Shown here piece by piece: positions 109 through 23,624 of a stretch of 28,365 bases of DNA. The DNA comes from a virus, in the IMG/VR virus record IMGVR_UViG_3300032084_001580, positions 1-28,365 of that record; one strand, given 5' to 3'. Each line of letters opens with the position of its first letter. Positions within the stretch are counted from its first letter, which is position 1. The position numbers and the translations under genes are program-made. The notes under the pieces are model-generated. The model saw only the letters and a program-made list of their open reading frames with translations. It ran no database searches and had not been told where the DNA came from.

Positions 109-118
109 CATATTTATA
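109..118 (+). promoter_or_regulatory. late-promoter-like element CATATTTATA
   Basis: This is the first of five intergenic copies of (C/T)ATATTTATA in the window. It lies between the stop of the partial first gene and the Hc1-like gene, 15 bases before its ATG, and a ribosome site (AAGGAAAG) fits between. No -35 hexamer stands at the proper distance, as expected for a T4-type late promoter, which uses only an extended -10 element. The role is inferred from recurrence and position. Confidence 0.5.
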
Positions 119-133
119 TAAAAGGAAAGAGTC

Positions 134-319
134 ATGACATCAAATGAGCTATACGAACAAATCAACGAATTTTATCTGGACTTCAAAGAGAACCACGAAA
201 AGTTCGTAAACAAAGGAACTAAAACAGCTTCTGTCAGAGCACGGAAAGCAATTGGCGAACTCAAAAAATTAGTCACTGCTTATCGTAAGGCATCTGTAGA
301 AGAAAGTAAAAAATCATAA
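134..319 (+). CDS. histone H1-like (Hc1-type) DNA-binding protein
   Basis: A 61-residue basic protein with an N-terminal helix rich in acidic residues, then the core KGTKTASVRARKAIGELKKL, then AYRKASVEESKK. This order, especially the K-G-x-K-x-A-x-x-R-A-R-K-A segment, matches the short Hc1/histone H1-like proteins that I recall from Bacteroidota, which have nearly the same length. Such proteins bind and compact DNA non-specifically. In a phage it could coat or condense phage or host DNA, but that is inference. It has a good ribosome site (AAGGAAAG) and its own late-type promoter element just upstream; the next gene follows after two bases. The lysine-rich C-terminal tail typical of chlamydial Hc1 is short here. 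Confidence 0.75.
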   Translation: MTSNELYEQINEFYLDFKENHEKFVNKGTKTASVRARKAIGELKKLVTAYRKASVEESKKS

Positions 320-321
320 CA

Positions 322-702
322 ATGAAGCAAGATCAGCTTAGACATATTATCAAAGAAGAAGTAAGCAAAGTACTTCAGGAGCAGAAGATAGGAGGATTGT
401 TAGATCCTGAAAATTTCGACCCAGTTAATCCAGATGTGGAGATTCCAGGTTTTGGGACAATGGATCGTAACTCACTGCGTCTGGGTATTGTTACTAGATT
501 GGAAGGTATTTTAGCCACTGCTAAAAATGCTGCTAAAGGTGGTCCGATGACATATAAGAACTATGAGAACATGTCATCATTGCTATCAGATAATAATGTT
601 CTTCTCACAATGATCAGAACAGAAATTGCAGTCGCAGATGAACTAGAGTCAATGCGCAAGCGTGGAGGTCGAAGAACCATCCCAATCCCGAAACAATATT
701 AA
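322..702 (+). CDS. unknown protein with N-terminal LRxIIxxE helix
   Basis: A 126-residue protein of unrecognised function. Residues 5-21 form a basic/acidic amphipathic helix (QLRHIIKEEVSKVLQEQ). A Pro/Asp-rich linker around residues 27-45 (DPENFDPVNPDVEIPGFG) follows, then a mostly helical part and a basic tail with RKRGGRR. The same N-terminal pattern occurs in the protein at 11803-12219, and I know similar starts from small proteins of marine T4-like phages, where it may be a docking helix. It starts two bases after the Hc1-like gene without a ribosome site, so translation is probably coupled. It is the last gene of its unit: a T-rich hairpin and a sigma-70 promoter follow. Confidence 0.6.
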   Translation: MKQDQLRHIIKEEVSKVLQEQKIGGLLDPENFDPVNPDVEIPGFGTMDRNSLRLGIVTRLEGILATAKNAAKGGPMTYKNYENMSSLLSDNNVLLTMIRTEIAVADELESMRKRGGRRTIPIPKQY

Positions 703-720
703 ACTTTTTTTACTTTTTTC

Positions 721-749
721 TTGATTCTTTGAGAAAAAGGTCTTATATT
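721..749 (+). promoter_or_regulatory. sigma-70-type promoter TTGATT-17-TATATT
   Basis: The -35 box TTGATT (721-726) and the -10 box TATATT (744-749) are separated by exactly 17 bases, and transcription should start near 756. The site lies in the only sizeable gap between 322-702 and 773-988, and the mRNA would carry a short leader with AAAAGG before the ATG. The -35 box overlaps an A/T-rich hairpin (714-722 pairing with 731-739) that follows a T-run and may weakly terminate transcription from the preceding gene. This is a host-type, early-class promoter, unlike the ATATTTATA elements. Confidence 0.6.
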
Positions 750-772
750 TAAATTGTATCAAATAAAAGGTT

Positions 773-988
773 ATGACATATTACATATCGAAAGTCAAGG
801 TAGCCACGGACGGACCGAAAGGTGGCACAAAATGGTTGAATGAGACGTATCTCGTAAAGGCAGCTTCTGTAACGCATGCCGAGGAGTTAGTTTACAAAGA
901 TTTTGAAGGAGCTCAAATGGATTTCGAAGTGAAATCAGTGAGCGCATCTAAGATTGGTAAAGTAATTGATAACTCTCAAATCAAGTAA
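773..988 (+). CDS. DUF4494-like small protein
   Basis: A 71-residue protein whose start (YYISKVKV), its central ETYLVKAASVTHAEELVYKD and the later FEVKSVSASKIGKV follow the layout of DUF4494 proteins as I remember them: a KVKV strand, a YLVDA-S-T-EAE strand-helix and a final beta strand. DUF4494 is found mainly in Bacteroidota and their phages; its molecular role is unknown. AAAAGG stands seven bases before the start codon and a clear sigma-70-type promoter lies upstream. The stop codon is immediately followed by the next ATG (TAAATG), so the two genes are co-translated. Family assignment is from pattern memory, not from a search. Confidence 0.55.
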   Translation: MTYYISKVKVATDGPKGGTKWLNETYLVKAASVTHAEELVYKDFEGAQMDFEVKSVSASKIGKVIDNSQIK

Positions 989-1393
989 ATGAAGGTACGT
1001 TATAAAGTTAATGATAAAGTAGTATTTGATTATCAGGGTAAGAAGCAGATTGGCGTCATAACAAATGAACGCTATGCACATAAGGCTTATAATTATGACC
1101 TCCGTGCAGAGAATGGATCTGGTTTCATCTGTGTTTTCGTAGACAAGAAACGTCAAGCAGGAGTTCCCGATTATCCAGTTATCGACAGCAAGTTGACTGA
1201 AGCCTGGAATGAATATGGATCTGGGACAACCAATCTTTGGGCCAATCATAATGTTGGACATACCAGAGCAAATTACCCGGAAGGCACAGAGTTGCTTCAG
1301 GACGGAGATGTTGTTTACAAGAACAATATTGAGATATTGGTCAATCATATCGAACGACATAACAATCTAACCTTCTTAAGAAGTCATGCTTAA
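989..1393 (+). CDS. unknown protein, SH3-like beta N-terminus
   Basis: A 134-residue protein of unrecognised function. Residues 1-30 (VNDKVVFDYQGKKQIGVITN) look like the first strands of a small SH3-type or KOW-like barrel, a fold that often binds RNA, DNA or peptide. The rest alternates short strands with a Trp/Asn/His-rich stretch (NEYGSGTTNLWANHNVGHT). Its start follows the DUF4494-like stop directly, and its end overlaps the next gene by eight bases, so it is a middle member of an operon. The antisense frame over the same bases is long but is a shadow. Confidence 0.5.
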   Translation: MKVRYKVNDKVVFDYQGKKQIGVITNERYAHKAYNYDLRAENGSGFICVFVDKKRQAGVPDYPVIDSKLTEAWNEYGSGTTNLWANHNVGHTRANYPEGTELLQDGDVVYKNNIEILVNHIERHNNLTFLRSHA

Positions 1394-1664
1394 ATCAGAG
1401 CAACATGTAAAGCGTTTATTTCCAGATGCGCGCCCCATCACTTTTGAAGATGGGGTTCGTATCATGGATCATGACGTGTTTATTGCAGAAGAGTATCTGT
1501 TCCCAGGAACATATGATCTGGAACAGGCATGGGAGTACGCTGCATTAGCATGTAAGACAACTCAGAACTTCAATCGTACTCATCCAATGAGAATGGATCT
1601 TAGCACATTGGAAGCTAAGAAACGAAGAATTTCAAGACGTAAAAAAAGAAAACAAAATGTTTGA
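1386..1664 (+). CDS. unknown small protein with basic C-terminus
   Basis: A 92-residue protein. It begins MLKSEQHVKRLFPDARPITF, has an acidic aromatic middle (AEEYLFPGTYDLEQAWEYAA) and ends in a strongly basic tail (KKRRISRRKKRKQ) that may touch nucleic acid. No family is recognised. It overlaps the genes on both sides by eight bases, which suggests translational coupling and supports its being real. A purine-rich stretch (AAGAAG) before the start could act as a weak ribosome site. Confidence 0.5.
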   Translation: MLKSEQHVKRLFPDARPITFEDGVRIMDHDVFIAEEYLFPGTYDLEQAWEYAALACKTTQNFNRTHPMRMDLSTLEAKKRRISRRKKRKQNV

Positions 1665-2475
1665 AAAAGTTAAACGAATGTTGAACTTCGACAATGTCGC
1701 TGATCAACAACAGAAACAGGCAGAAATTGAACGTATGTTAGAAGAACGTGGTAAAGATGCTGTAGAATTATCCGATGACCCAAATGACAATGTTTTTTCA
1801 TTTGATGCTTCCAATCCTGCTATCAAAGAACTTACCGAGGTCAATACCACAGTAAATAATGATGAAACATCAACACAGACATCCGGACCAGATCCTGTAC
1901 TGGACATCTATACTAGTACTGAAGTTGTAGGTTGGCCTGATAGACAAACGCAGTTTTATTTCTATAATAACGTGCAACGTTATATGCCTCATAATGATAG
2001 TGTCTTAGAATTTGGAGCTGGTCGCGGTGATTTCAATCAATGGTATGAGACAACATATCAGACAGAACGTGAATATCTAGGTTATGAACTTAGAGATGAA
2101 CTCGTCCAGGCCGGAAAAGTTGCATATGGTGATGATATTGATATTATCTCTAAAGATTGGATGAATATGAAAAAACGACATGTCATGGATTGGTGTGTCA
2201 ATATTGGGGCTAATAATTATGTATTTGATACAGAAGATTCAGATGTAGACCCAGTACAATTTTTAAAAGATACAATTGATCAGATGATGGCTCATTGTCG
2301 CAAAGGTAGTGTGATTATGTTTCAATCTGATGAATATGATAATTTGCCTGCGGGATTTGTAAGTTTCAATGCTGGAGATATTACATCCTGGGCAATAGAT
2401 AAGTATAAAACTTTAGCGCTGGACCATAGCGCAGGAGATGGTCAATGTTATTTAGTAATTTATAAAACAGTATAA
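1657..2475 (+). CDS. SAM-dependent methyltransferase-like protein
   Basis: A 272-residue protein. Residues 1-90 are a charged, poorly ordered N-terminal extension rich in Asp, Asn and Thr. From about residue 100 a class I methyltransferase fold begins: motif I VLEFGAGRGDF (116-126) for the SAM glycine loop, then GYEL (142-145) with the acidic residue that would bind the ribose, then a DWMN segment and a later strand (SVIMFQSDEY) before the end. The substrate is not evident; nucleic acid, protein and small molecules are all possible. The usual catalytic signatures of DNA methylases (DPPY or PCQ) are absent. It overlaps the preceding gene by eight bases and its stop overlaps the next start (TAATG). 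Confidence 0.6.
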   Translation: MFEKVKRMLNFDNVADQQQKQAEIERMLEERGKDAVELSDDPNDNVFSFDASNPAIKELTEVNTTVNNDETSTQTSGPDPVLDIYTSTEVVGWPDRQTQFYFYNNVQRYMPHNDSVLEFGAGRGDFNQWYETTYQTEREYLGYELRDELVQAGKVAYGDDIDIISKDWMNMKKRHVMDWCVNIGANNYVFDTEDSDVDPVQFLKDTIDQMMAHCRKGSVIMFQSDEYDNLPAGFVSFNAGDITSWAIDKYKTLALDHSAGDGQCYLVIYKTV

Positions 2476-2741
2476 TGGGAAACCGTTTAAACAATTCGTA
2501 CGCTTGGGGGCCAAGCAAAACTAAGAGAGGTAAATTTTACAACTCAGTTGATTTTGAAACAAATGAAAATCTTATGGAACGAGATTATCAACAAGATTTG
2601 GAAAATGCCAGGCTTGGTAAGTTCTATATCGGTAAAAGTGTATTTGAATTGACTAGGGGAGAAATAGATCTGATCATGGATACTCTATATCGAGCAAAGG
2701 ATACGGCCGAGAAACGATATAAAATGGGTATGTTAAAATAG
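2475..2741 (+). CDS. unknown small basic protein
   Basis: An 88-residue protein sharing one base of its ATG with the methyltransferase stop. The N-terminal third is polar and aromatic (NNSYAWGPSKTKRGKFYNS). The rest should be helical (RDYQQDLENARLGKFYIGK, then a helix ending KRYKMGMLK). No family is recognised. The tight coupling suggests it is made together with the methyltransferase, possibly as a partner, but nothing in the sequence proves that. It ends shortly before a late-promoter-like element, so it closes this operon. Confidence 0.45.
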   Translation: MGNRLNNSYAWGPSKTKRGKFYNSVDFETNENLMERDYQQDLENARLGKFYIGKSVFELTRGEIDLIMDTLYRAKDTAEKRYKMGMLK

Positions 2742-2752
2742 CAGATTGTTTA

Positions 2753-2762
2753 CATATTTATA
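2753..2762 (+). promoter_or_regulatory. late-promoter-like element CATATTTATA, almost touching the start codon
   Basis: An identical copy of the element at 109-118. It ends only four bases before the ATG at 2767. If transcription starts six or seven bases after a -10 element, as is normal, the mRNA would begin at about the start codon. No -35 box or ribosome site is visible. The match to the other copies supports a promoter; the exact start is inferred. Confidence 0.5.
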
Positions 2763-2766
2763 TTAA

Positions 2767-3186: not shown

Positions 3187-3195
3187 ATATATATT

Positions 3196-3229
3196 AGAAA
3201 TTGATTGGTACTGCGGACCTTTCTTTTTT
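3196..3229 (+). terminator. imperfect hairpin followed by a T-run
   Basis: AGAAA (3196-3200) can pair with TTTCT (3220-3224), and GGT (3207-3209) with ACC (3217-3219) inside it, leaving a six-base internal bulge on the 5' side. A T-run follows directly. It lies just after the stop of 2767-3186 and would separate that gene from hsp20. The stem is weak, so this is a candidate only. Its apical part contains the left copy of the inverted repeat that flanks hsp20. Confidence 0.35.
3210..3219. repeat. left arm of a 10-bp inverted repeat flanking hsp20
   Basis: ACTGCGGACC here is the exact reverse complement of GGTCCGCAGT at 3681-3690, on the other side of hsp20. It is GC-rich in a very AT-rich gap, and both arms are preceded by GATTG. 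Both arms lie in the loop region of terminator-like hairpins, so the two loops could pair in the RNA, or the repeat could mark the ends of a transferred gene cassette. Confidence 0.6.
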
Positions 3230-3269
3230 GTTTATTTTTTAATTTTTAAATCATCTAAGGAGATTTATT

Positions 3270-3671
3270 ATGAGTACATTAGATTTACATCCATTCGATT
3301 TGATGTTCCGCAATTTTTTCGACAACGGAACAGAGTTCAGAACAGCATTAAACAGTAAAGTTCAGCATCCAGTTGACATTTCAGAAACAGACGATGGTCT
3401 GCAGATTGAAATTGCAGCAGTGGGTGTTGACAAGCAGGACTTGGAGTTACAGACCCAAGGAGATACTTTACGAGTTGCATACCGTAAAGACAATCGACCT
3501 GCACATGAGTATATCCATAAGGGTATTGCTCGCAGAAACTTTGACTTAGGTTGGAGGCTGGCAAGAAAGTTTGATTTGGAAAAGATAGACGCCAAATTGG
3601 ACAAAGGGTTATTATGCATCAAAGTTCCTTACACTAAGGAACAGGCTACAAAGAAAGTTTCTATCAGCTAA
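3270..3671 (+). CDS. hsp20: Hsp20 / alpha-crystallin family small heat-shock protein
   Basis: A 133-residue protein of typical small heat-shock length. A short N-terminal arm with aromatic FDLMFRNFFDN precedes the alpha-crystallin domain (about residues 30-130): PVDISETDDGLQIEIAAVGV, then the VDKQDLELQTQGDTLRV strands, then RNFDLGWRLARKFDLEKIDA and the closing GLLCIKVPY. The family holds unfolding proteins in a soluble state without ATP. Phage copies occur in cyanophages and other marine T4-like phages and may protect virion or replication proteins. It has the strongest ribosome site in this region (AAGGAGA), unlike most neighbours, and is bounded by terminator-like hairpins and an inverted repeat, so it looks like an independent cassette. 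Confidence 0.9.
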   Translation: MSTLDLHPFDLMFRNFFDNGTEFRTALNSKVQHPVDISETDDGLQIEIAAVGVDKQDLELQTQGDTLRVAYRKDNRPAHEYIHKGIARRNFDLGWRLARKFDLEKIDAKLDKGLLCIKVPYTKEQATKKVSIS

Positions 3672-3675
3672 AATG

Positions 3676-3701
3676 AGATTGGTCCGCAGTCAATCTTTTT
3701 T
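3676..3701 (+). terminator. intrinsic terminator after hsp20
   Basis: AGATTG (3676-3681) pairs with CAATCT (3691-3696) around a nine-base loop, and a T-run continues to 3701. It begins four bases after the hsp20 stop. The loop carries the right arm of the inverted repeat. Stem plus T-run is the standard intrinsic form, although the stem is only six pairs. Confidence 0.6.
3681..3690. repeat. right arm of the inverted repeat flanking hsp20
   Basis: GGTCCGCAGT, the reverse complement of 3210-3219. It occupies most of the loop of the terminator hairpin after hsp20. The arms are 461 bases apart with exactly one gene between them. Confidence 0.6.
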
Positions 3702-3751: not shown

Positions 3752-3759
3752 AAGTAAGT

Positions 3760-4827
3760 ATGAGACTAGGATATGCATGTACTAACATGACCTTAACTAA
3801 TCGTCCTAAGAAGTTAGGAGGTAGAATAACGACATCAAGAACTTTGAGACAAGCCTCCTGGCAACCAACTTGGGATCTGCATAGAGTAGGCGAACTGGCT
3901 GTTGCCAATGCCACTGATCTGTTAGAATATCTGAAATGGAATGATGAGCATAGAATAACTTTGTTCCGTGTAGGATCTGAAATTGTCCCATGGCACGATC
4001 ATTTTGAACTAACAGATCTTCCTCAGTATGAAGAGTTGTCCGAAGCTTTGTTCAAGGCCGGAGAGTATGCTCGAGAACATGGTCATCGTCTCACGACACA
4101 TCCAGGACCATTTCACGTTCTAGGTTCTCCTAATCAAGATGTAGTAGAAAGAAGTATTACAAGCCTCGAAAGACATTCAGAAGTATTTGATCTGATGGGG
4201 TTTGAGCCGTCACATGAAAACAAGATTAACATTCATATCGGCGGAGCATATGGCAATCATGAAGGTACTGCAGTAAGATGGATTGAAGGTTACAATCGAT
4301 TGTCAGATGCTTGTAGAGCAAGACTAGTTATTGAAAATGATGATAAGAATAGTATGTACAGTGTACGTATGTTGTATGATTTGTTTCATCGTGTTGTAGG
4401 TATGCCTATCACATTCGATTATCACCATCATATGTTTCATCCAGATGGTCTTGATGAATATGAGGCATTGCAGATGGCAGCTGATACATGGCCTTCAGAT
4501 GTTCGTCAATGTACACATTACAGTGAATGTCGAACTCATGAGAAACAACGTGACTTTGAAGAAATGATTCAGAAGCAAGGTTTGAGTCTGAATGAAGTCC
4601 AAGAGTGGCCTGAATTGGCAAAAATAAAACATAACATTGATAAAATCAGAAAACAAGCTCATTCTGATTATATCTATGATGAGATCCGTACATATGGTAT
4701 GGACTTTGATATTGTGGTGGAGGCAAAGGCAAAAGAGTTAGCCGTTCTCCATTACAGACATATTTATCCTAAAAGCGAAACAAAGGTTTACAATGAAAGA
4801 CAGAGAAAATACACTAAGACGACTTGA
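3760..4827 (+). CDS. uvsE: UV-damage endonuclease (UvsE/UvdE family)
   Basis: A 355-residue TIM-barrel nuclease of the family that nicks DNA 5' to UV photoproducts and abasic sites. The family signature opens the protein (RLGYACTNMTL, residues 2-12). Likely metal ligands follow in order: H114 and H119 (THPGPFH), H159 (NIHIGG), E192 (VIEND), D220 with H222-H224 (FDYHHH) and H253/E256 (THYSE). Near the end HSDYI and DIVVEAKAKELA match the usual closing part. About 30 extra helical residues before HSDYI appear lineage-specific. The start is fixed by the conserved N-terminus, although no ribosome site is present. The 3' end overlaps a small gene in another frame. It would let the phage repair sunlight damage in surface water. 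Confidence 0.92.
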   Translation: MRLGYACTNMTLTNRPKKLGGRITTSRTLRQASWQPTWDLHRVGELAVANATDLLEYLKWNDEHRITLFRVGSEIVPWHDHFELTDLPQYEELSEALFKAGEYAREHGHRLTTHPGPFHVLGSPNQDVVERSITSLERHSEVFDLMGFEPSHENKINIHIGGAYGNHEGTAVRWIEGYNRLSDACRARLVIENDDKNSMYSVRMLYDLFHRVVGMPITFDYHHHMFHPDGLDEYEALQMAADTWPSDVRQCTHYSECRTHEKQRDFEEMIQKQGLSLNEVQEWPELAKIKHNIDKIRKQAHSDYIYDEIRTYGMDFDIVVEAKAKELAVLHYRHIYPKSETKVYNERQRKYTKTT

Positions 4828-6482: not shown

Positions 6483-6510
6483 TTGATAGTTGATATATTT
6501 TTCTTATAAT
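6483..6510 (+). promoter_or_regulatory. sigma-70-type promoter TTGATA-16-TATAAT
   Basis: TTGATA (6483-6488), a 16-base spacer and a perfect TATAAT (6505-6510) make the best host-type promoter in the window. Transcription should begin at about 6517, which is the start codon of the ClpP-like gene at 6516, so the message is predicted to be leaderless. It would drive the clpP-HD-small membrane protein-sigma factor operon. Confidence 0.65.
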
Positions 6511-6515: not shown

Positions 6516-7130
6516 ATGAAAGATATATACGGAGAATCCGGTCCATCAAAAATTATGAAAGAGATTGATACTGATACCGGTCATTTATATGAATCGCTGA
6601 ATTATCAACTTGGCACATTACTGGATTATGAAGATTCTATTATTTATATGAATGAAGAAATATCTGACAGTAGTGTTACTGATCTGATAATTCGTATGCG
6701 AAGTTTACTTCAACACCGTAAAGATAAACAAGCACCGGTTAACATCTTGATTGATTCGCCCGGTGGAGATGTTTATGCTACTTTAGGTATTATTGATTAC
6801 ATTGAGCAATTGGATGTGAAAGTGAATACTCTTTGTCGTGGTAAAGCATTTTCAGCAGCAGCGATTATATTAGCATGCGGAACTGGAACCAGAATGTGTA
6901 GTAAACGAAGTACAGTGATGTTGCATCAGACATCAAGTTTCTTAGGAGGTAAAATGTCAGATATATCCGCATTCCTGGAGAATGTGAAAGTAATGGAAAA
7001 TACCATTTATGATATCTTAGCAGAAAAGACGAAGAAGGATGCAGCTTTCTGGAGAGAGAACATGAAATCGGACATGTTCTTAACTTCTGAACAATTGTTA
7101 TCTTATGGTTTAATTGATCAAATAATTTAA
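6516..7130 (+). CDS. clpP: ClpP-type serine protease
   Basis: A 204-residue member of the ClpP/crotonase-fold protease family, the usual length. The full catalytic triad is visible: Ser113 in RGKAFSAAA, His137 in MLHQTSS and Asp186 in KSDMFLTSEQLLSYGLID. The oxyanion-side IDSPGGDVYATLGIIDYI (about 79-96) is also intact. ClpP forms tetradecamers and degrades substrates fed by an AAA+ partner; no ClpX/ClpA gene is in the window, so it would use host unfoldases or act alone. Phage copies may remodel host proteins or mature capsid proteins. It is first in an operon with a perfect promoter and no leader. Met14 is a possible alternative start, since the fold begins at about residue 28. Confidence 0.88.
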   Translation: MKDIYGESGPSKIMKEIDTDTGHLYESLNYQLGTLLDYEDSIIYMNEEISDSSVTDLIIRMRSLLQHRKDKQAPVNILIDSPGGDVYATLGIIDYIEQLDVKVNTLCRGKAFSAAAIILACGTGTRMCSKRSTVMLHQTSSFLGGKMSDISAFLENVKVMENTIYDILAEKTKKDAAFWRENMKSDMFLTSEQLLSYGLIDQII

Positions 7131-7887: not shown

Positions 7888-8172
7888 ATGATAGCAGCAG
7901 TAATCACAACGTCGGCATTGTTATTGGCATCAATTCTATTAAATTTCAATCAGATGCGTAAACAAGAAAAACTGGAAGAGTATATTGAAGATTTGGAAAG
8001 TTCCAATACTAATTACTATACCTTTTATAATGATTTAAAAAAGATATCAAATGAATCTTATTCTAGAATGCGCCAGATTGATCGAATAGGATCGTTTGAA
8101 TCAGATGATGAAATTGGTTTCATATTCAAAGACATCAAACTGATAATAGAAGAACTTAACAGGAAGTTTTAA
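7888..8172 (+). CDS. small membrane-anchored protein
   Basis: A 94-residue protein. Residues 2-20 (IAAVITTSALLLASILLNF) are a hydrophobic anchor and the rest is a charged helical domain. The part around RQIDRIGSFESDDEIGFIFK resembles a stretch I recall from small conserved proteins of marine T4-like phages, whose role is unknown. It lies three bases after the HD gene, and its stop overlaps the start of the sigma-factor gene, so all four genes of this unit are coupled. With one span and a short soluble domain it could tether a complex to the membrane; it does not look like a holin. Confidence 0.55.
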   Translation: MIAAVITTSALLLASILLNFNQMRKQEKLEEYIEDLESSNTNYYTFYNDLKKISNESYSRMRQIDRIGSFESDDEIGFIFKDIKLIIEELNRKF

Positions 8173-8930
8173 TGAGCAGTGTAGATCAATTTTATGAATG
8201 GTATAGGACTGAAGGCAGTCAGAAAGAATTGGAACTTTCTAAAAACAAGAAATACAAACGACAATATTTCACTTTCGTAACTGAACAAGCCATACATGCT
8301 TATAATGGAGAAGAAAACAAATATAAGCGAGACAAAATCTTCAAAGAATACATCAATTATCCATTTCATAAGTTAGTGGAGAATGTGTATCACACTTTCA
8401 AGTTCACATATTTTGATGTTCCTTATGAAGATGTACAGAAAGAGGTCGTGGCTTTCATGACAGAAAAAATCAGCAAGTTTCAAGAAGGCAAAGGTAAGGC
8501 ATTTTCTTATTTCACTATCATTGCTCGAAACTATCTGATCATACAGAACAATTCCAATTATAAGAAACTCAAAGCCCGGGCGACCACAGATGCCATTGAC
8601 ATGGAACGTGATCTTGACACTGAAATGAATCTATCAGATCATCAGGAAAATCTTAAAGATTTCATCGATCTTTGGGTTGCTTGGTATGATAAAAATTTGA
8701 ATAAACATTTCACGAATGAACGTGATATACAAATTGCTGACACAGTGTTAGAACTATTTAGACTTCGGGCAAATCTGGAAAGTTTCAATAAGAAAGCATT
8801 GTATATTTTGATCAGAGAACGTACTGGCATGAAAACACAATTCATTACTAAAGTTGTGAACATCATGAAAGCTCAATTCGAAGAGATGTACAAAGAATAC
8901 CTACGGACGGGGCAGTTAACAGAAATATAA
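8172..8930 (+). CDS. late-transcription sigma factor (T4 gp55-like)
   Basis: A 252-residue protein. Residues 60-135 look like a sigma-70 region 2: a helix (FHKLVENVYHTFKFTY), DVQKEVVAFMTEKISKF, and the marked GKGKAFSYFTIIARNYLII followed by a basic NYKKLKARAT. T4 gp55 and marine homologues share this arrangement, where an aromatic F-x-Y-F-x-x-x-A-R-N helix contacts the promoter. A second helical pair near 215-245 (RERTGMKTQFITKVVNIMKA) could be a region-4-like or accessory part that T4 gp55 lacks. Such proteins direct host RNA polymerase to late promoters, with gp33 and a sliding clamp. It lies immediately before the structural module, and the ATATTTATA elements are its likely targets. The assignment rests on motif resemblance. 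Confidence 0.65.
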   Translation: MSSVDQFYEWYRTEGSQKELELSKNKKYKRQYFTFVTEQAIHAYNGEENKYKRDKIFKEYINYPFHKLVENVYHTFKFTYFDVPYEDVQKEVVAFMTEKISKFQEGKGKAFSYFTIIARNYLIIQNNSNYKKLKARATTDAIDMERDLDTEMNLSDHQENLKDFIDLWVAWYDKNLNKHFTNERDIQIADTVLELFRLRANLESFNKKALYILIRERTGMKTQFITKVVNIMKAQFEEMYKEYLRTGQLTEI

Positions 8931-8936: not shown

Positions 8937-8946
8937 CATATTTATA
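8937..8946 (+). promoter_or_regulatory. late-promoter-like element CATATTTATA before the tail module
   Basis: Third copy of the element, between the sigma-factor gene and the first gene of the structural block, followed by AGAAAAGGATCTATG with a ribosome site. It is eleven bases from the start codon. TTAACA (8916-8921) lies 17 bases upstream of TATTTA within the same element, so a weak sigma-70 reading is also possible. Confidence 0.55.
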
Positions 8947-8957: not shown

Positions 8958-9344
8958 ATGAGTACGGAATTTGAACTGTTTAAGGGGACCACCTTTTCTG
9001 ACTTGATGAAAGACATTTATCATAATTCTAAACGCAAGTCCAGACAGATAGAAGGTCTTATCAAAGAACTGCAGCCTATGATCAACAATGTCGGTGATGC
9101 CACTGTCATTGTACCAATGATCAAAGATTATCTGGAAGTGTCAGTTAAAAATGATGATGCATTAGTTAAACTGGCAGCTGTAGTGCAGCGATTAGTAGCA
9201 GGTAACAAACGCGATGATGAAGGTAGTCTACTTCTTACAGATGAAGAACGTGATCAACTTCTTAAAACTGCAGAAGAAGAAATTGAAAAACTAAAAACAG
9301 ATGATAAAGTAGAATTTAAGGATATCCATGATAAGTACGAATAG
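8958..9344 (+). CDS. helical protein of the baseplate module, function unknown
   Basis: A 128-residue, almost fully helical protein. Its first part (LFKGTTFSDLMKDIYHNSK) and the segment IKDYLEVSVKNDDALVKLAA match a conserved small protein I recall next to baseplate genes in marine T4-like phages; no role is established there. The C-terminal 35 residues are highly charged (TDEERDQLLKTAEEEIEKLK) and probably a coiled coil. It has its own late-type promoter and AAAAGGA ribosome site, and it overlaps the next gene by 17 bases. A virion or assembly-chaperone role is plausible from context. Confidence 0.6.
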   Translation: MSTEFELFKGTTFSDLMKDIYHNSKRKSRQIEGLIKELQPMINNVGDATVIVPMIKDYLEVSVKNDDALVKLAAVVQRLVAGNKRDDEGSLLLTDEERDQLLKTAEEEIEKLKTDDKVEFKDIHDKYE

Positions 9345-11779: not shown

Positions 11780-11789
11780 CATATTTATA
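11780..11789 (+). promoter_or_regulatory. late-promoter-like element CATATTTATA before the wedge genes
   Basis: Fourth intergenic copy, in a 40-base gap, extending as ATATTTATAGTAAAA. The gene start follows 13 bases later. The upstream region has no -35-like hexamer. It would give the gp25-gp6 wedge operon its own late transcript. Confidence 0.55.
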
Positions 11790-11802: not shown

Positions 11803-12219
11803 ATGGGTAAATTTACACAAGCTTTGCGGCAGATCATACGTCAAGAAATGCGTGAAGTTTTGACTGAAGAACTGCTTCCTATACTGCAAGATGTGTTGTC
11901 AGAACAGAAACGTCCGACAACAAGTAGACCAAAACGAAGCAAGCCAAGCAAAAGAAAAACATTTTCCAAGAACTCCATTCTGAATGATCTGTTAAATGAC
12001 ACAGCTAGTTCAACAAACTTCTCTGATATGAACACAGGACCATTAGTGGAATCCGGACTGAGCATGATGAGTTCAGAGCCTAATGTCACTCCAATGACTG
12101 ACATTGATGGACGTCCAGTAGACACTTCTAATGAAGCTGTTGCCAATGTTCTAAATATCATGAACAAAGATTATTCTGCTCTAATGACTGCCATTGACAA
12201 GAAAAAAGGTATTGTATAA
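11803..12219 (+). CDS. unknown baseplate-module protein with N-terminal LRxIIxxE helix
   Basis: A 138-residue protein. The first 33 residues are an amphipathic helix (ALRQIIRQEMREVLTEE, then LLPILQDVL) of the same pattern as the start of the protein at 322-702. A very basic linker follows (RPKRSKPSKRKTFSK), then a Ser/Asn/Asp-rich middle and a C-terminal helix (NVLNIMNKDYSALMTAIDKK). It opens the operon that carries the gp25-like and gp6-like genes, and its stop touches the gp25-like start. I know proteins of this kind in the same place in other marine T4-like phages, without a known role. An assembly factor or minor baseplate part is the natural guess. Confidence 0.6.
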   Translation: MGKFTQALRQIIRQEMREVLTEELLPILQDVLSEQKRPTTSRPKRSKPSKRKTFSKNSILNDLLNDTASSTNFSDMNTGPLVESGLSMMSSEPNVTPMTDIDGRPVDTSNEAVANVLNIMNKDYSALMTAIDKKKGIV

Positions 12220-12831
12220 TTGGCACGAACTATATACACATATCAACCAGTACCAGTTACATCTAATACAGCATTAGGTGTGAAATTGCCACTAAACAAA
12301 GGGGTTGTAGGTGGTAGAACAGCTACTCAAAATTATGCTTCTGGGTCGGCTGAAGGTGCTGGTGTTTTTGAATCATCATATGATAATATTGAGCAAGCTA
12401 TAACAAATCTGAAAAGTTTATTATTGACACGTACGAATGAAAGACTCATGCAGCCAGATTTAGGAACTGATATTTACAATGTATTGTTTGATAATATGTC
12501 AGATGATTTAGAAGAGTACCTACAGACCAATATCAAAGAAAAAATTGCATTCTGGTTACCTTATATCAAATTGAACAGTTTAAGATTGTTTGAAAACAAT
12601 GATAAAGGATCATATCTAATACAAATGAGATTCACTGTAAATCCTCAAGGAGCTAACATAGTCATTAATCTTTTAGCAGGTAATGAAAATTTACAAATTA
12701 TTGAAAATACTAATGCTGTACCTATACAGAGTAATTTAGTAGAAGCAAGTACATTTACCGGAGCTAGTCTCACAGGAGGAACACCGTTGGTAGGAGTTGA
12801 TCCAGTTAATCCAGGTAATAACATATATTAG
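12220..12831 (+). CDS. 25: baseplate wedge protein, gp25-like
   Basis: A 203-residue protein with the gp25/GpW-type fold at about residues 40-145: YDNIEQAITNLKSLLLTR, then NERLMQPDLGTDIYNVLFDN, then a long helix (LEEYLQTNIKEKIAFWLPY) and two strands ending MRFTVNPQ. The R-L-M-x-P-x-L-G-T segment is the family hallmark. gp25 sits at the wedge-hub contact and seeds sheath assembly in T4 and related contractile machines. It has extensions of about 35 residues before and 45 after, the latter Gly/Thr-rich. The start codon appears to be TTG, directly after the upstream TAA, because MARTIYTYQPVPV reads as a natural N-terminus and no ATG is better placed. Confidence 0.85.
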   Translation: MARTIYTYQPVPVTSNTALGVKLPLNKGVVGGRTATQNYASGSAEGAGVFESSYDNIEQAITNLKSLLLTRTNERLMQPDLGTDIYNVLFDNMSDDLEEYLQTNIKEKIAFWLPYIKLNSLRLFENNDKGSYLIQMRFTVNPQGANIVINLLAGNENLQIIENTNAVPIQSNLVEASTFTGASLTGGTPLVGVDPVNPGNNIY

Positions 12832-12839: not shown

Positions 12840-14699
12840 ATGAGTTTAGTTAAAAAAGATGTAACATATTTGAATAAAGATTTTGCACAATTCAGACAAA
12901 ATCTTATCAACTTTACAAAAACATATTTTCCAAATACATATGGAGATTTCAATGAAACTTCACCAGGAATGTTATTTATGGAAATGGCATCATATGTAGG
13001 AGATGTTTTATCATTCTATACTGATACATCGTTTAGAGAATCTATTATATCATCTGCTCGTGAACGTAGAAATATAATGGAATTGTCACATTTATTTGGA
13101 TATAAACCAAGAAATAGAACAGCTGCTACATGTACAGTTTCAATATATCATCTAGTAAATAGTATAGGAACTGGCGCAGCTACTGAACCTGATATGAGGC
13201 AAGCATTAGTACTTGATAGTGGTGCTGAAGTTTTAACAGATAATGGTACTGTATTTAGGACAATTGAAACAGTAGATTTTCAAAATAACCCTGAAATAAC
13301 TGTTTATGACTTAGATAGTAACGGCGATCCAGCTAATTATCTGTTAAAAAAATATGTACAAGTTGTTTCTGGTGAAGTTGAAACATTAGATTATGTTTTT
13401 AATAATCCAAAACCGTATGATAAAATTGTAATACCTAATGAAAATGTTTTGGACATTATATCAATAACTGACTCAGCTGGTAATACCTGGCGTGAAGTTG
13501 ACTATTTGGCACAGGATACCGTTTTTGATGATGTTTTAAATATTCCGTTCAATGATCCTACACTAAGCCAATTTAGATCTTCTGTTCCATATATTTTGAA
13601 GTTAAGGAAAACCCCAAGAAGATTTATTACAAAACGTAGAGAAGATGGTCGTATTGAAGTTCAATTCGGGTCTGGTGTCAGTTCTGATGCAGATGAAGAA
13701 ATTGTACCGAATCCAAAAAATGTAGGTATTGGATTAGAATATCTAAGAAGAGAAACATTGAATAACTTAGATCCGTCTAATTTTTTATATACAAGTACAT
13801 ATGGTTTGGCTCCAAATAATACAACATTAACCGTTACATACTCTATAGGTGGAGGATTAGATGATAACGCTGGAGTGAATACTATAAACAGATTTCAGTC
13901 ATTTAATGTTTTAAATGAAAGCTATGATGACATTAATTTTGATTTGATATCAGATACATTGGCAGTGATAAATGAAGAGCCGGCTACCGGAGGTAATGAT
14001 TTTTCTGATATTGAACATATTAGACAAAATGCCATGGCATCATTCGCTGCACAGAATAGAGCAATTACAAGAGAAGATTATATCTCTCGTATATATTCTA
14101 TGCCACAGAAATACGGTTCTATAGAAAAGGCTTTTGTAATAGGTGATGATCAGATTAACACATCTGATATGTCATATCCTTCATACACAATACAGAATCC
14201 ATTGGCATTAAATGTTTATGTGTTATCATATGATGAAAATCAAAATCTTGTACCAGCTAATCAAGCATTGAAAGAAAACTTACGTACATATCTTTCAGAA
14301 TATAGAATGTTAACAGATGCTTTAAATATTAAAGATGCTTTCATAATTAACATAGCAGTTGATTTTGAAATTACATGCAGGCCGACATATAATAACACTG
14401 AAACAATTTTGCGATGTATCGAACGTTTAAAGTTTTTGATGTCAAATGAACGTATGCAAATAAATGGTTCTATAGATATCAATGCATTGAAAGCAGATTT
14501 AGATCGTGTAGAAGGTGTTCAAACTGTAAATGATTTATCAATAAGTAACAGATATTCTACAGCACAAGGATATTCAGGTAACGTTTATGATATTACATCT
14601 GCTACAAGAAATGGCATCATTTATCCAAGTTTAGATCCATGTATTTTTGAAATCAAATATCCTAACAGAGATATTAAAGGCAGAACAATAGGAAGTTAA
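12840..14699 (+). CDS. 6: baseplate wedge protein gp6-like (Baseplate_J family)
   Basis: A 619-residue protein close to T4 gp6 in length. The N-terminal part (TYLNKDFAQFRQNLINF; NETSPGMLFMEMASYVGDVL; SFRESIISSARERRNIMELS; LFGYKPRNRTAAT) is the family's conserved start. The central strand-rich domain contains VQFGSGVSSDADEEI, and near residue 400 FAAQNRAITREDYISRIYSM follows the Baseplate_J pattern. The C-terminal half (LRTYLSEYRMLTDALNIKDA; INIAVDFEITCRP) matches the wedge-dimer region. gp6 dimers form the continuous inner ring of the baseplate. A GGA sequence precedes the start. The gene sits directly after the gp25-like gene, as in related phages. Confidence 0.92.
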   Translation: MSLVKKDVTYLNKDFAQFRQNLINFTKTYFPNTYGDFNETSPGMLFMEMASYVGDVLSFYTDTSFRESIISSARERRNIMELSHLFGYKPRNRTAATCTVSIYHLVNSIGTGAATEPDMRQALVLDSGAEVLTDNGTVFRTIETVDFQNNPEITVYDLDSNGDPANYLLKKYVQVVSGEVETLDYVFNNPKPYDKIVIPNENVLDIISITDSAGNTWREVDYLAQDTVFDDVLNIPFNDPTLSQFRSSVPYILKLRKTPRRFITKRREDGRIEVQFGSGVSSDADEEIVPNPKNVGIGLEYLRRETLNNLDPSNFLYTSTYGLAPNNTTLTVTYSIGGGLDDNAGVNTINRFQSFNVLNESYDDINFDLISDTLAVINEEPATGGNDFSDIEHIRQNAMASFAAQNRAITREDYISRIYSMPQKYGSIEKAFVIGDDQINTSDMSYPSYTIQNPLALNVYVLSYDENQNLVPANQALKENLRTYLSEYRMLTDALNIKDAFIINIAVDFEITCRPTYNNTETILRCIERLKFLMSNERMQINGSIDINALKADLDRVEGVQTVNDLSISNRYSTAQGYSGNVYDITSATRNGIIYPSLDPCIFEIKYPNRDIKGRTIGS

Positions 14700-15834: not shown

Positions 15835-18831
15835 ATGCCAAATACGTTTATATTCAATCCAAGTCCTCAGACAATACCTGCTGAACCGTTTGTGGTTAAT
15901 GGTTATTATCCATTATACTTTACACCTCAGGCGGCGTTGAATGTATCACCGGTCGGTGCATATCACGAACATATACTTAATGGTACAGCATATTATATGC
16001 CTGATCTAATACAAGCCCCGCCGGCGCCGGGACAGTATCATGGAGATTATCCAGGTTCAGCTAATCAAGCTGTACCATATGATCTGCAATTAGCAGACAG
16101 AAATAATAACAATATAGCAGAAATTGATCAGTTTCAAGATCAGTTTGTATTATATGGTTTACAGCAAATTGTGCCTACGGTTACACAGGACATTTTAGAT
16201 GATGTGTTAGATCCATTCTTTGGTTATTTTGTACAAGATGATTTACCTGTTGTACCATCTCCGAATGATCTATTTATAGTAGCTGGTGGAGATTTAACTA
16301 CAATTGTAAGTTTAAATCTTGTAGATGTCCATGATCAATACATTTCACGAGGACCACAAAATTTAAGTCCAGGTGATAATCAGGTATCAAATGTTTTCTG
16401 TGTTTACTATATTAGATATGGTGAGGCATTACCGATACCAAATTACAAGACATTGGAAGTGATGTTGGTAGAGCGTGGCTTGACATATGACGCTATTAGT
16501 TTAGCAACTAATCAAGACTTTGAAACATATGATCTTTCTATAGATGGCCAAATCGGAGATGATACCACTTTATCATCATATGATGAATTCATACAAAAAA
16601 TGACTTTAGATAGATCTGCGGAATGGAATTATGACATCAGATATCGCAGTGGTTACAGACCATTGAATCCATTTGTGCGAGACCCGGGAGATTATATTAG
16701 ACCATTACCTGCAGGAGCTACATATGCAACCATAACAGCAATAACACCTCAGCAAAGATATTTTGAAAGAGTATTTCAGCAACAGACATATCGAGAACGG
16801 ATGCGAGATCGGTTTGAGGGTAAAATGATGATACTTGATTGGCCTACTCTGTTTGGTGGTTGGGATGATGGTGCGATAAGCAATAATACGGCAGCTCAGA
16901 TCGATGATCTTGTTTTAAATTTACGAATGATGATACATGGTCATTGGAAACAGGTAACTGATGTGTTTGTGATAAAAAAATATGCTTATAACAAAAACTT
17001 TGATATTTCAAACTATGGAGCTGTTGCACCTAATCCAGTAGAAGGTATAGTAGGAGCAGATGGTCGTTATGGAGAATCTGGTCTGATTAATACATTAGTG
17101 ATACAAGAAGGCATTGATAATATTCAATCATTGTTACCAGAAGGAACTACAAATGCTAGTTTCAGTGACACTGTTCAGGAAATTGAACCTATCTGGAATG
17201 AATTTCCGCATATATTAACATCCGATGCTGGTTCAGATCCTGGAGATGATGGAGTTGCTGGATTAGATTTGGCAGAGTATGATAATTATATTGATTTTGA
17301 ATCCAATGGTGATGCAATGTTTGATGTCACTGAGCTGCAACCATATGAACCTCGAGGTTCCATCAAATATTATCCTGAAAATAGATTCTTAGCATTAACA
17401 CAACAAGCTCTACAACAAAATCAAATTTCTGGTATTGTAGATCAAATTTTAGAATACTTACCATCTATTATAACTAAATTAGAATCTCTCGTTATAGCAT
17501 ATGATTCTACTCCACAGAGTCTAGTTAATTATGTAGATCAGAAATTAGGTCCAGGAAGTCCACTATACAATGTATTTCTAGCAAATGATCCATTTAAGGT
17601 GAAACGTAAGAAGAATAATGGCGATATTGTGGATATTGCTGAATATGGTAATTTCTTTAGAGCATATGGTAATAATAGCAATGTAAGAGACAAATTATCA
17701 AGTAATCAGAAAGATAATCTATTGAGTAACTATCAATGGGGATTGATATTTGATCAAAGAGGAGTTAGTCAAATTGTTGCTAATGAACAGGCAAATCTTT
17801 TAGCTACAAGTATAAATAATGGAATATTACAGTTCATCGCAGATCTAAATGATTTAAGCATACATAGTATACCTAATCTTACCATTGGTCAAGCGCCACT
17901 GCAGATCATAGATCCAACACAGATACCAACTATACCAAACAGTGCTACTATTGCTACTCCTGGCGCCGCTCCTGGCGTAGGAGCTGGTAATCCGGTTGTG
18001 CCTCCATCATCAGGAACTCCTGCACCCCCTGTTATTCCTAATCCATTATCAGGTATTATTCCTTCGGGTGGTGGCCCTACCCCAGGTACATTGACAAATC
18101 CAATCACCGGGCAGACAATACCGATTACACCTTCCGGTACTACAACGCAACCATCACCTAACATATCAACATCAACATCTGGGGCAAATCTTTCAACTAT
18201 ATTTATAGGATCGAATTCATCACAGGTAACATTTAATGTACCTGTAAGTATTCAAAATTATTTAGATAATACGGGTCTTATTCAGCCATCAAATTATCTG
18301 ACTGATAACACATTCAATTGTAATGATAGAACAATACGAGAGGCATTGAAGCAGAATGATTACATGAGAACTATCATCTTCAATAAGATTAAAGTTCAAT
18401 ATGCTAACATTAGGGCAGCAGCATCATTGTTAGATAATTATCTAGATTATATAAGAACATTGATGAACAATCTGGAACAGACATTGCAACAGATTGATAA
18501 TCTAGTAAGAACTGCTTTTGATCCATCTCAGGCTCAATTAATGTTAGACACAGTTATAGCTCTGAACAATTTTGTTAATAATCTACAAAGTACAGGTACC
18601 GGGGTAGGTGTTGTATATTTACCATTTTTTGTGATACAAGCAACAGATGATCTTGTAAGTACTGAATTAAAAGCACAATACAATTCTATACAATATGTCA
18701 GACGTAAAGTGTTTGAAAACGATCAACCAAAATCGTATTTCATTAAATGGCCTAACAGTAGTCGTCAAGTATTACTACAGAATGTACGTAATCCAAATAC
18801 CTTGACTTTTGATAATTATATATACACGTAG
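15835..18831 (+). CDS. large baseplate/tail structural protein
   Basis: A 998-residue protein. It opens with a beta-type head (GYYPLYFTPQAALNV; AYHEHILNGTAYYMPD) of a kind common in marine T4-like virion proteins. A mixed central part follows, with a polar, Tyr-rich composition (e.g. RYFERVFQQQTYRERMRDRF). About residues 698-785 form a Pro/Gly/Thr-rich linker (PGAAPGVGAGNPVVPPSSG). The end at 830-925 is a long helical, coiled-coil-like region (NYLDYIRTLMNNLEQTLQQI). Size and place suit T4 gp7, the large wedge protein, but I see no signature that proves it. Gene order (after gp6 and a 375-residue protein) makes a wedge or fibre-network role the most likely. Confidence 0.6.
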   Translation: MPNTFIFNPSPQTIPAEPFVVNGYYPLYFTPQAALNVSPVGAYHEHILNGTAYYMPDLIQAPPAPGQYHGDYPGSANQAVPYDLQLADRNNNNIAEIDQFQDQFVLYGLQQIVPTVTQDILDDVLDPFFGYFVQDDLPVVPSPNDLFIVAGGDLTTIVSLNLVDVHDQYISRGPQNLSPGDNQVSNVFCVYYIRYGEALPIPNYKTLEVMLVERGLTYDAISLATNQDFETYDLSIDGQIGDDTTLSSYDEFIQKMTLDRSAEWNYDIRYRSGYRPLNPFVRDPGDYIRPLPAGATYATITAITPQQRYFERVFQQQTYRERMRDRFEGKMMILDWPTLFGGWDDGAISNNTAAQIDDLVLNLRMMIHGHWKQVTDVFVIKKYAYNKNFDISNYGAVAPNPVEGIVGADGRYGESGLINTLVIQEGIDNIQSLLPEGTTNASFSDTVQEIEPIWNEFPHILTSDAGSDPGDDGVAGLDLAEYDNYIDFESNGDAMFDVTELQPYEPRGSIKYYPENRFLALTQQALQQNQISGIVDQILEYLPSIITKLESLVIAYDSTPQSLVNYVDQKLGPGSPLYNVFLANDPFKVKRKKNNGDIVDIAEYGNFFRAYGNNSNVRDKLSSNQKDNLLSNYQWGLIFDQRGVSQIVANEQANLLATSINNGILQFIADLNDLSIHSIPNLTIGQAPLQIIDPTQIPTIPNSATIATPGAAPGVGAGNPVVPPSSGTPAPPVIPNPLSGIIPSGGGPTPGTLTNPITGQTIPITPSGTTTQPSPNISTSTSGANLSTIFIGSNSSQVTFNVPVSIQNYLDNTGLIQPSNYLTDNTFNCNDRTIREALKQNDYMRTIIFNKIKVQYANIRAAASLLDNYLDYIRTLMNNLEQTLQQIDNLVRTAFDPSQAQLMLDTVIALNNFVNNLQSTGTGVGVVYLPFFVIQATDDLVSTELKAQYNSIQYVRRKVFENDQPKSYFIKWPNSSRQVLLQNVRNPNTLTFDNYIYT

Positions 18832-21800: not shown

Positions 21801-23600
21801 GGATCAGTACCAAGATCTCAGAAAATCAGATTGGAAGATAATGAACTTATCAATACATTATCACCAGAACGCTCAGCTGAAGTTTCTAGATTTGACAGAG
21901 CACCATTGGATTCAAATCGGTTAGGTCTGTTCTATTCATTAGCAGATCAGATCAATAAAGATATATTCAATCATGTCGGAGATATATCATTAGATGATTT
22001 CATTGGTGATCCAGATCATGAATTCACTGAAGAATACTCAGATCTATTTCATTTTTCTAAACACTATTGGAAGAAATTTGATCAACGAAATGACCTAAAT
22101 GCTTTCATAAGAGTCTTTAGTCAGTTTGATTTTGGTATATTCACACAAATTGCTCAAACTATACCTGAACGTGTTGATGAAGTAATGGGTTTGTTAGTTG
22201 AGCCTCATGCTTTGGAGCGAAGTAAATCGAGATTGACATCATTACCTGAAGTAGAAAATATAGGCGTTTTTGCTGATTTCACTGTCACATCATCAGCAGA
22301 AGCTGAAGCTGATGTCGGTCCTCAACGAGAGGGAGTAATAGATAGACCTATCACATTTGAAGGAAATACAATTTATCATCTCAATGATAATGGTTATGCT
22401 GATATTGGTAATAGATTCGGGCAAATATCAATGTTCACATCAGGTACTAGTGATTATTGTACAATTGCAGTTTATCCAGTAGATGAAAAATTATCTGCCA
22501 CAGCGTCTATTCATACTAAATATACAGTTAAAAATGATCATATTTCTCAGCCATGGACTAACTTAGGTCACATGGATGTTTCAGGAGGCGGTCGCACAAA
22601 GTCTGAGCCACTTAATGCTGGAACAGGTAGTGACAGTTTAAGATTACAACTTCGTACATATAATATGTTTGAAACTATACGTGATTTTCGTATTAACATT
22701 TCTCATCAAAATGAAGCAGGATCAGGAATTAAAGCTGTCAAAATTGATTCTGCAATAATGACAGTTTTTGATAAAGATACAAATTCTGATCACCCTAATT
22801 ATAAAACAAATTTATCTGCACAACATCCGGATTATTTTGATGGTACTAGACATCGTGTTGATCGTTCTGGAAGTTTTGTTGGTACGAGTATACAAGAGAA
22901 ATCATTTACAACTAATTATTCTGCTTCAGCTCTCAGATCAGATATAATAGAATTTAATGATGTACGGGTGAATCCGTTTACAGATCTAACAATTGATCTG
23001 AAATTTTTCACAACTGGGTCGTATTCTTTGATACCTGCTATTGATAAACTTGATGTTGTTCAATCAATATGTAAGGTATGTCATAATCCATTACAGCAAA
23101 TAGCAGATCAATGTAGACCTAGTACAATTTACAGTAAGAAAATTTATCACTTTGGTAATCAGCAAGAGACATTTGCAAATAAATACAAACGTGATTTTGA
23201 TAGATTTTCAAGCCAGTCATTAGGTTTATATTACAGCAGTTCATTAGAAACAGCTTGTTACATGGACGATTTTCTTGCTCTAGACGAGCTACGATATTTC
23301 GAAGGAATGAAGAATAGTGGCACATCAGTTAATGGTGTGTCATTAGGCGGATTCGCTGTTGTAGGAAATATGGATTTCACAGGATTAAATTCAGTAGGCA
23401 CGCCGGTTGAAATATTCATTGTGAATCCAAATCAAATGATTTATAATCCAACAGCACCGACACCGGTAGTAGGAGGAGGTACATTAGTGGTATCATCAGG
23501 TGGAGGGACTAGACCTACTCCTGCTTATCCTCCCACACCAATTGCTGCAGATCCAAGTTTATTGGCTCAAGGAGGACAAAATACCGGATTAGGAGGTTAA
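18837..23600 (+). CDS. giant virion structural protein with LamG-like insertion
   Basis: A 1587-residue protein, the largest in the window. Recognisable stretches are YTEVMKNFGITRGTFETIVN (near 95-115), an all-helical WQRMYNNLPYILKTKGTKRA and MNIYGIPQSLLSIREYGGPK (about 595-640), then FAYALKFNEGSHLKINNEYV, which begins a LamG/ConA-like beta domain to about 870. YIEAFDQKSFDIHTLNPSSY and SQFDFGIFTQIAQTIPERVD follow, then strands with LRLQLRTYNMF, and a cysteine group C1412-x2-C1415-H...C1426. The end is Pro/Gly-rich. The helical segment with ILKTKGTKRA is shared by marine T4-like structural proteins that I remember as tail-fibre or baseplate proteins. The start lies five bases after the previous stop. 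Confidence 0.6.
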   Translation: MSINRFTNFRDIVNTDGPLLTSTWRPEHVSILAPSATSLTPGPVGYGLPYLQNTDIVVETHVYGPTANQLVPSATEYIIGGPIQDYVIDNNELMVNYTEVMKNFGITRGTFETIVNVYRNILGDYSSRPFVIKEISPDRKELHLKIRPGSFLYPQDLENYLNSYGTPAYQQNVYQTAIDPVTNQEYVQVDAFGNPIILQYNNIPLSDAHTFINLGDNELYRIINVKPWLEGDDLVVRLYQALPEKFNENDAFAFIVDQLTDSYSDNIKVAPRPQAEILNELAGPNFETYTYALSTESDFQNYNQILTATPAIAQQVVDSLFSGSLGRSKKIPIDYSGFQNFVFYSSAEQRIRNFKHKMELIEYYDTVIDQLNAANTDAAYMSNNITVNEALKNRVIGSFDAYEHWLYNDPTSSLFTNQADIYENRDPFFAEGGLIGAENYRIQPWPKFLSGSQFIRHASTSTIVTNWFDGTVATASLYDIENNNALRNTIPEFIREDENNDQYILFTDMVGHHFDILYTYVNNLSKIYHTEEHPKLGQDARIYTELAESLGWYLQEGNQASSLIQYTLGVDSGSGAFAQTGSLFSKSNSDITAEIWQRMYNNLPYILKTKGTKRAIHAIMNIYGIPQSLLSIREYGGPKVGEDEPVLIEDRFAYALKFNEGSHLKINNEYVSSSFGLFGVGLDKGEIPIIKREFRIKPSGSSLLYSRVEHDDSGNEFPTAHIAIEHTGSYSGSSKYGRLNYVIGKGSGASTALVGSTDYLPLYDGDIWNITEYYTTTGNHFNTGSNTDTTYNLQIQKASDYIVGKIIHSGSVSITPTYAEHYDGWSLSPELETAGSSSFSYLGGNTGSSDQYNVNSALTSLMGTLRTYTGSMQEYREYIEAFDQKSFDIHTLNPSSYVSGLSATGSFDTLVKHYPLGTDLKAVDRSQGAGLFVTSSHPDQRNKDFSPLFTDGRNTYASASGFNVPDNVQRGNYEVVEETYYVQGVSMGGSVPRSQKIRLEDNELINTLSPERSAEVSRFDRAPLDSNRLGLFYSLADQINKDIFNHVGDISLDDFIGDPDHEFTEEYSDLFHFSKHYWKKFDQRNDLNAFIRVFSQFDFGIFTQIAQTIPERVDEVMGLLVEPHALERSKSRLTSLPEVENIGVFADFTVTSSAEAEADVGPQREGVIDRPITFEGNTIYHLNDNGYADIGNRFGQISMFTSGTSDYCTIAVYPVDEKLSATASIHTKYTVKNDHISQPWTNLGHMDVSGGGRTKSEPLNAGTGSDSLRLQLRTYNMFETIRDFRINISHQNEAGSGIKAVKIDSAIMTVFDKDTNSDHPNYKTNLSAQHPDYFDGTRHRVDRSGSFVGTSIQEKSFTTNYSASALRSDIIEFNDVRVNPFTDLTIDLKFFTTGSYSLIPAIDKLDVVQSICKVCHNPLQQIADQCRPSTIYSKKIYHFGNQQETFANKYKRDFDRFSSQSLGLYYSSSLETACYMDDFLALDELRYFEGMKNSGTSVNGVSLGGFAVVGNMDFTGLNSVGTPVEIFIVNPNQMIYNPTAPTPVVGGGTLVVSSGGGTRPTPAYPPTPIAADPSLLAQGGQNTGLGG

Positions 23601-23614
23601 TTTCCTAGTTAAAG

Positions 23615-23624
23615 TATATTTATA
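23615..23624 (+). promoter_or_regulatory. late-promoter-like element TATATTTATA
   Basis: Fifth intergenic copy, extending as ATATTTATAGTAAAC and so resembling the copy at 11780 in its flank as well. It lies in the only gap of this part of the structural block, 16 bases before the ATG at 23641, and would give the distal adhesion genes a separate late transcript. No -35 box is visible. Confidence 0.55.

Follow-up and report, generated by a model that had tools for sequence, protein, structure and literature searches.

TATTTATA as a probable late promoter of a T4-like myovirus lineage with a diverged gp55-like sigma factor

The particle-building genes of the virus analysed here and of hundreds of its environmental relatives appear to be turned on through the octamer TATTTATA, and the reader of this box is most likely a diverged version of the late-gene switch protein of T4. 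In our estimate, the probability is roughly 0.87 that [A/C]TATTTATA serves a large T4-like myovirus lineage as its late promoter, read by a gp55-like sigma factor on the host RNA polymerase. Flavobacterium phage immuto and Microcystis phage Mel-JY01 are isolates of this lineage. The analysis started from a stretch of 28,365 nucleotides (IMG/VR record IMGVR_UViG_3300032084_001580), referred to below as the window, for which a late promoter with an altered sequence had been proposed, together with a gp55-like sigma gene; comparative evidence across related genomes supports this original prediction. The late promoter of T4, TATAAATA, is a textbook system served by the sigma factor gp55, the co-activator gp33 and the sliding clamp gp45 (PMC2988020). 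A search of openly accessible journal papers returned no report of TATTTATA as a phage promoter.

Distribution of the box in the window

On the + strand of the window TATTTATA occurs eight times, five times between genes and three times inside them (6641, 16271 and 18200), as originally predicted with coordinates that refer to the 10-mer (C/T)ATATTTATA. The single - strand copy (17811) is located inside a gene, and the 9-mer ATATTTATA was found six times on the + strand and not at all on the - strand. The raw count is mildly high, with nine copies against 4.7 expected, a number reached by 4 of 100 dinucleotide shuffles of the whole window. The signal resides in placement and not in raw number, since five of the eight + strand copies fall within the 2.5% of the DNA that is intergenic (binomial 3e-7). 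When the 20 gaps were shuffled with dinucleotide composition kept, none of 5,000 shuffles reached five copies (mean 0.23).

All five intergenic boxes precede start codons, and the predicted spacing of 4-16 nt agrees with the measured distances of 15, 4, 11, 13 and 16 nt from the last base of the octamers beginning at 111, 2755, 8939, 11782 and 23617. The first late box (110..118, +) is situated 15 nt 5' of the ORF at 134 and is also present in two relatives (L014 and L016) with identical flanks, so that its conservation can be followed in relatives of identical sequence only. The second (2754..2762, +), placed 4 nt 5' of the ORF at 2767 with a leaderless-type spacing, is kept in 3/3 diverged relatives, and the third (8938..8946, +), which adjoins the 3' end of the sigma gene 11 nt 5' of the ORF at 8958, in 8/8 diverged close relatives. 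The fourth box (11781..11789, +), kept in the one testable diverged relative (1/1), stands 13 nt 5' of the ORF at 11803 and heads a late operon with a gp25-like baseplate wedge gene (12220..12831, +; phrog_261, E=3e-13; PF04965) and a gp6-like baseplate wedge gene (12840..14699, +; phrog_219, E=5e-32). The fifth (23616..23624, +), 16 nt 5' of the ORF at 23641 and its tail-region genes, fell outside the conservation comparison. Within the same set of relatives (L009-L016), the in-gene copies have been mutated away, the one at 6641 being kept in 0/5 and the one at 16271 in 0/2.

The box in independent genomes

Relatives of the protein encoded at 8172-8930 were detected in immuto, in Mel-JY01 and in the metagenomic genome LR756508, all three of which also match the gp6-like baseplate protein of the window, and in approximately 500 or more IMG/VR stretches. 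In the complete 160-kb genome of immuto, TATTTATA was the octamer most enriched between genes on the + strand (24/30 copies), and with both strands pooled it ranked second to the overlapping TATATTTA. All 24 intergenic copies lie 5' of + strand genes, 23 of them at 1-33 nt. Gaps carrying the box were concentrated in the structural region (16/30 versus 5/65 elsewhere; Fisher P=2e-6, with the late region defined from annotation after part of the data had been seen). Mel-JY01, whose host is a cyanobacterium as given in its record, showed the same direction with a weaker signal (16/35 versus 6/28).

Among 56 non-redundant IMG/VR loci, TATTTATA was positioned upstream in the sense direction in 111/241 cases against 19/241 for its reverse complement TATAAATA, and the one-base-shifted ATATTTAT (127/289) was the only octamer ranked above it. 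Counted by locus, 46 preferred TATTTATA, 2 preferred TATAAATA and 8 were tied. An upstream copy was present in 51/56 loci and missing from 5/56, a co-occurrence of motif and sigma family that by itself constitutes no independent proof, as the loci had been chosen by the sigma. The same pipeline returned TATAAATA as the top octamer of a T4 late segment, and in 58 loci around a gp55 of the T4/cyanophage type the preference was reversed (TATAAATA 39/56, TATTTATA 2/56); these loci were used in place of a 50-kb stretch of S-PM2, which holds few late genes and was uninformative as a motif control. Two outcomes had been named at the outset as evidence against a + strand promoter, namely copies as frequent inside genes as between them and use of the box in the TATAAATA orientation; whole related genomes, checked for both, did not refute the promoter reading. 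Chance clustering of an AT-rich octamer, with which the mildly elevated raw count of the window would agree, has a negligible probability and was ruled out by the gap shuffles, the replication in independent genomes, the strand asymmetry (111 versus 19) and the conservation.

Host-type promoters and gene layout

The boxes might instead represent the -7 element of host Bacteroidota sigma-A promoters (TAnnTTTG with TTG near -33). Such promoters (TTTG ... TAnnTTTG) are likewise AT-rich near -10, as the box is, and the host-type element TATATTTAG of immuto has ATATTTA in common with it, but they require an upstream TTG that is missing from the late boxes: neither TTG nor TTTG is enriched about 20 nt upstream of 147 boxes. 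The host-type promoters of immuto are bipartite, with TTG exactly 23 nt 5' of TATATTTAG in 20/20 intergenic sites, and lie in the opposite half of the map (1/30 gaps of the structural region versus 25/65 elsewhere). Moreover, four Bacteroidota phages in which no relative of the sigma was detected displayed no enrichment of TATTTATA in their first 47-50 kb (1/9, 0/10, 1/18 and 2/12), and the motif is present in a phage whose record gives a cyanobacterial host. The motif therefore tracks the sigma lineage and not the host group. A host sigma-A origin of the boxes is highly improbable, and we rejected it on the lack of an upstream TTG and the lack of enrichment in the sigma-less Bacteroidota phages.

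Between about 60 and 77 kb of immuto (L018), 20 copies of TTG-N20-TATATTTAGGTATCAATAATTAAAA with invariant spacing were observed ahead of small early-region genes. The window contains one putative early promoter of this host type, TTG-N20-TATATTTA (721..751, +), located 5' of the ORF at 773 and matching the bipartite motif of immuto exactly, a single match that is not significant alone. A second candidate, TTGATA-N16-TATAAT (6483..6510, +), which matches a consensus, precedes the cluster of ClpP-like, HD and sigma genes and may serve as its early promoter; a scan of the window for sigma-70 and terminator consensus sequences gave matches near chance level.

In the window and in many distant loci the box directly follows the sigma gene and precedes the next gene, and in some loci a terminator-like hairpin separates the sigma gene from the box. 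In immuto a host-type promoter (76214) precedes the sigma gene cluster, and a late box (78885) directly follows it. The sigma gene closes an earlier gene cluster, with the first late box directly 3' of it in many loci, and in this arrangement production of the sigma would turn on the genes immediately downstream. The layout suggests a simple cascade, with the sigma gene transcribed first by the host polymerase and its product then activating the late operons.

Anatomy of the box and predicted leaderless mRNAs

Alignment of 147 sites from relatives confined the information to the octamer and the preceding base (A 74%, C 18%, T 2%), apart from a weak bias towards A/T at about 13-18 nt upstream and a preference for A 4-5 nt after the box. 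The absence of a -35 box, already noted in the original prediction, was borne out on these sites, which show no enrichment of TTG, TTTG or TTGAC at the -35 distance. The distance between box and ATG is bimodal, with sharp maxima at 3 nt (15 sites) and 4 nt (19 sites), neighbouring values of 0-3 sites each and a broad group from 10 nt onwards. Spacings of 3-4 nt account for 36/142 sites versus 5% expected, with a P value (7e-16) that overstates independence because some gene families recur among the related loci; roughly a dozen gene families carry boxes at this spacing.

An element of translation initiation or of the mRNA, placed before start codons and distinct from a promoter, would agree with the sharp group of sites 3-4 nt before ATG and with the lack of Shine-Dalgarno signals in many Bacteroidota. 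Other boxes, however, are 10-60 nt away from the start codon, some directly follow terminator-like hairpins, and most genes, including genes within the same operons, have no box; we give such an element hardly any probability. Under the preferred reading of the box as a late promoter, the T4 geometry, in which the box spans -13 to -6 (PMC1524935), would bring the transcription start of closely spaced boxes to or next to the start codon. About a quarter of the boxes end 3-4 nt before ATG, which on this geometry predicts leaderless late mRNAs. Most of the short spacings in the T4/cyanophage set measure 5 nt, and most come from one gene type: in L134, L136, L146, L151, L165, L187 and others, a gene type beginning MTAITRxPxNPNxLHP... 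has TATAAATA exactly 5 nt before its ATG, which by T4 geometry would likewise yield a leaderless mRNA.

The sigma-like protein and the T4 partner proteins

The gene at 8172..8930 (+) encodes a putative gp55-like late sigma factor of 252 aa which, by profile alignment and predicted structure, comprises sigma region 2 and an extra C-terminal helical domain. Its region-2-like part aligned with T4/cyanophage gp55 in a profile-profile comparison (hhalign E about 2e-5, probability 76%). A scan of the whole immuto genome with the gp55 profile gave the orthologous sigma gene as sole match (E=0.008), and in a library-wide scan the immuto sigma (gp118) reached the gp55 PHROG with E=0.5 only. The sigma of the window had no match in PHROGs, 15 of 47 sigma relatives weakly matched Pfam Sigma70_r2 (best 0.0014), and a search of solved-structure sequences with the sigma alignment returned nothing useful. 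The AlphaFold model is all-helical (pLDDT 85.5, pTM 0.51), and its Foldseek lists consist mostly of sigma factors, with the sigma of a T4-like phage (KPV15) among them and none below E 0.001. By these comparisons the protein reads as a sigma region-2 protein and remote kin of gp55. The gp55-like label given to it originally probably holds for region 2, with the reservations that the kinship is remote, that a C-terminal domain has been added and that gp33 was undetected.

This C-terminal domain (window 8628-8927) adds about 100 residues, which are confidently predicted to form four helices with a helix-turn-helix-like stretch (pLDDT 91 when folded alone). A fusion of sigma2 and sigma4 ("gp55-gp33 fusion") was considered, and Foldseek of the domain gave no sigma-4 or other convincing PDB match. 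No common C-terminal motif of the kind by which gp55 binds the clamp was seen among 47 sigma sequences; according to a review, the clamp-binding C-terminus of gp55 is not conserved throughout T4-related phages. The gp33 profile found T4 and S-PM2 and none of eight lineage records, a result that a diverged gp33 could escape. A gp45 clamp profile of limited sensitivity matched one lineage contig, and a gp44-like clamp loader was detected in 5/8 records (Mel-JY01, LR756508 and three contigs), immuto giving no match. The clamp profile evidently misses some clamps, because Mel-JY01 possesses the loader without a clamp match.

Since binding of the sigma to the box is deduced and the homology to gp55 is remote, a different factor, of phage or host, might read the late promoter. 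We regard this as unlikely: motif and sigma family were found together in 51/56 loci (selected by sigma), the box often directly follows the sigma gene, and a related sigma in Rhodothermus phage RM378 accompanies the related motif TTATTTAA. The motif, its orientation, its conservation, its link with structural genes and its occurrence together with the sigma family were observed; for the 8172-8930 sigma as the reader, we infer its recognition of TATTTATA, the late timing and the start sites. Carrying this sigma, the host RNA polymerase would need no -35 element: it would bind one 8-bp box at the -10 position, and transcription would begin about 4-6 nt 3' of the box to produce structural-gene mRNAs.

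Comparison with known late promoters

Like the T4 late promoter, TATTTATA is a single AT box of about 8 bp near -10, without a -35 element, before structural genes, and it is accompanied by a sigma with a region-2 domain of probable remote kinship to gp55. Unlike in T4, the core has changed from AA to TT, the base before the box is A or C and not mostly T, and the sigma is larger, with an extra C-terminal domain and no detected gp33. Transcription from a T4-type late promoter begins late in infection and about 10 bp 3' of the box centre. Neither TATAAATA nor a variant with the AAATA core predominates in the lineage, as the counts of 111/241 and 19/241 and their reversal in gp55-type loci demonstrate. 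The box would work like its T4 counterpart, with a sequence other than the one by which the T4 promoter is defined. The original prediction had called it the inverse of the T4 late box. That description did not hold: TATTTATA and TATAAATA agree at 6/8 positions in the same orientation, and their reverse-complement relation arises because TATNNATA is self-complementary. Aligned in this manner, the box represents a probable core substitution of AA to TT and no inverted promoter.

Late boxes diverged from TATAAATA are known from S-PM2 and other cyanophages (NATAAATA; PMC2984593) and from Aeh1 (CTAAATA; PMC1524935). Similarly to TATTTATA they depart from the T4 sequence, but they retain the AAATA core, as do the variant boxes of the cited papers generally, whereas the present lineage has a TTATA core. 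In Rhodothermus phage RM378 (NC_004735; L106/L191/L192), p020, annotated as hypothetical, is a distant homologue of the sigma (E=6e-13). The strongest upstream motif of this phage, TATTTAA/TTATTTAA, is also found in the gap right after p020, and 31 of 61 TATTTAA heptamers lie upstream in sense. A single box TTATTTAA(A) followed by an A-run was observed ahead of many of its structural genes on both strands. The RM378 motif has the TATTTA core in common with TATTTATA, but its box is TTATTTAA/TATTTAAA.

A large, mostly uncultured lineage would combine a changed-core box with a strongly diverged sigma, with TTATTTAA of RM378 as a third state, and the co-evolution of late sigma and promoter is directly testable with the cultivated phage immuto. 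We advance more tentatively, and consider less likely than not, a combination of switched-core promoter, larger sigma, no gp33, no T4-type clamp in PolA-type members (immuto among them), and many leaderless structural mRNAs (box 3-4 nt before ATG). If true, the late sigma and its box can change specificity together and operate without a link to the replication clamp. In practice, TATTTATA can be used as a rule for annotating late operons on environmental contigs, with leaderless late mRNAs predicted.

Further genes and sequence elements

Several auxiliary genes were noted in the window, namely those for an Hsp20 protein (3270-3671), a UvdE-type UV endonuclease (3760-4827; PF03851, E=6e-57) and a ClpP-like protease (6516-7130). 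In Mel-JY01 a gene for ribosomal protein S21 (RpsU; L021:22183-22410) is annotated within the structural region, which may bear on the translation of late mRNAs. Either side of the Hsp20 gene of the window, at 3201-3222 and 3674-3696, the related stretches ACTGCGGACC and GGTCCGCAGT were recognized by eye in inverted orientation; each is followed by a T-rich run, and they are possibly terminators or a paired element.
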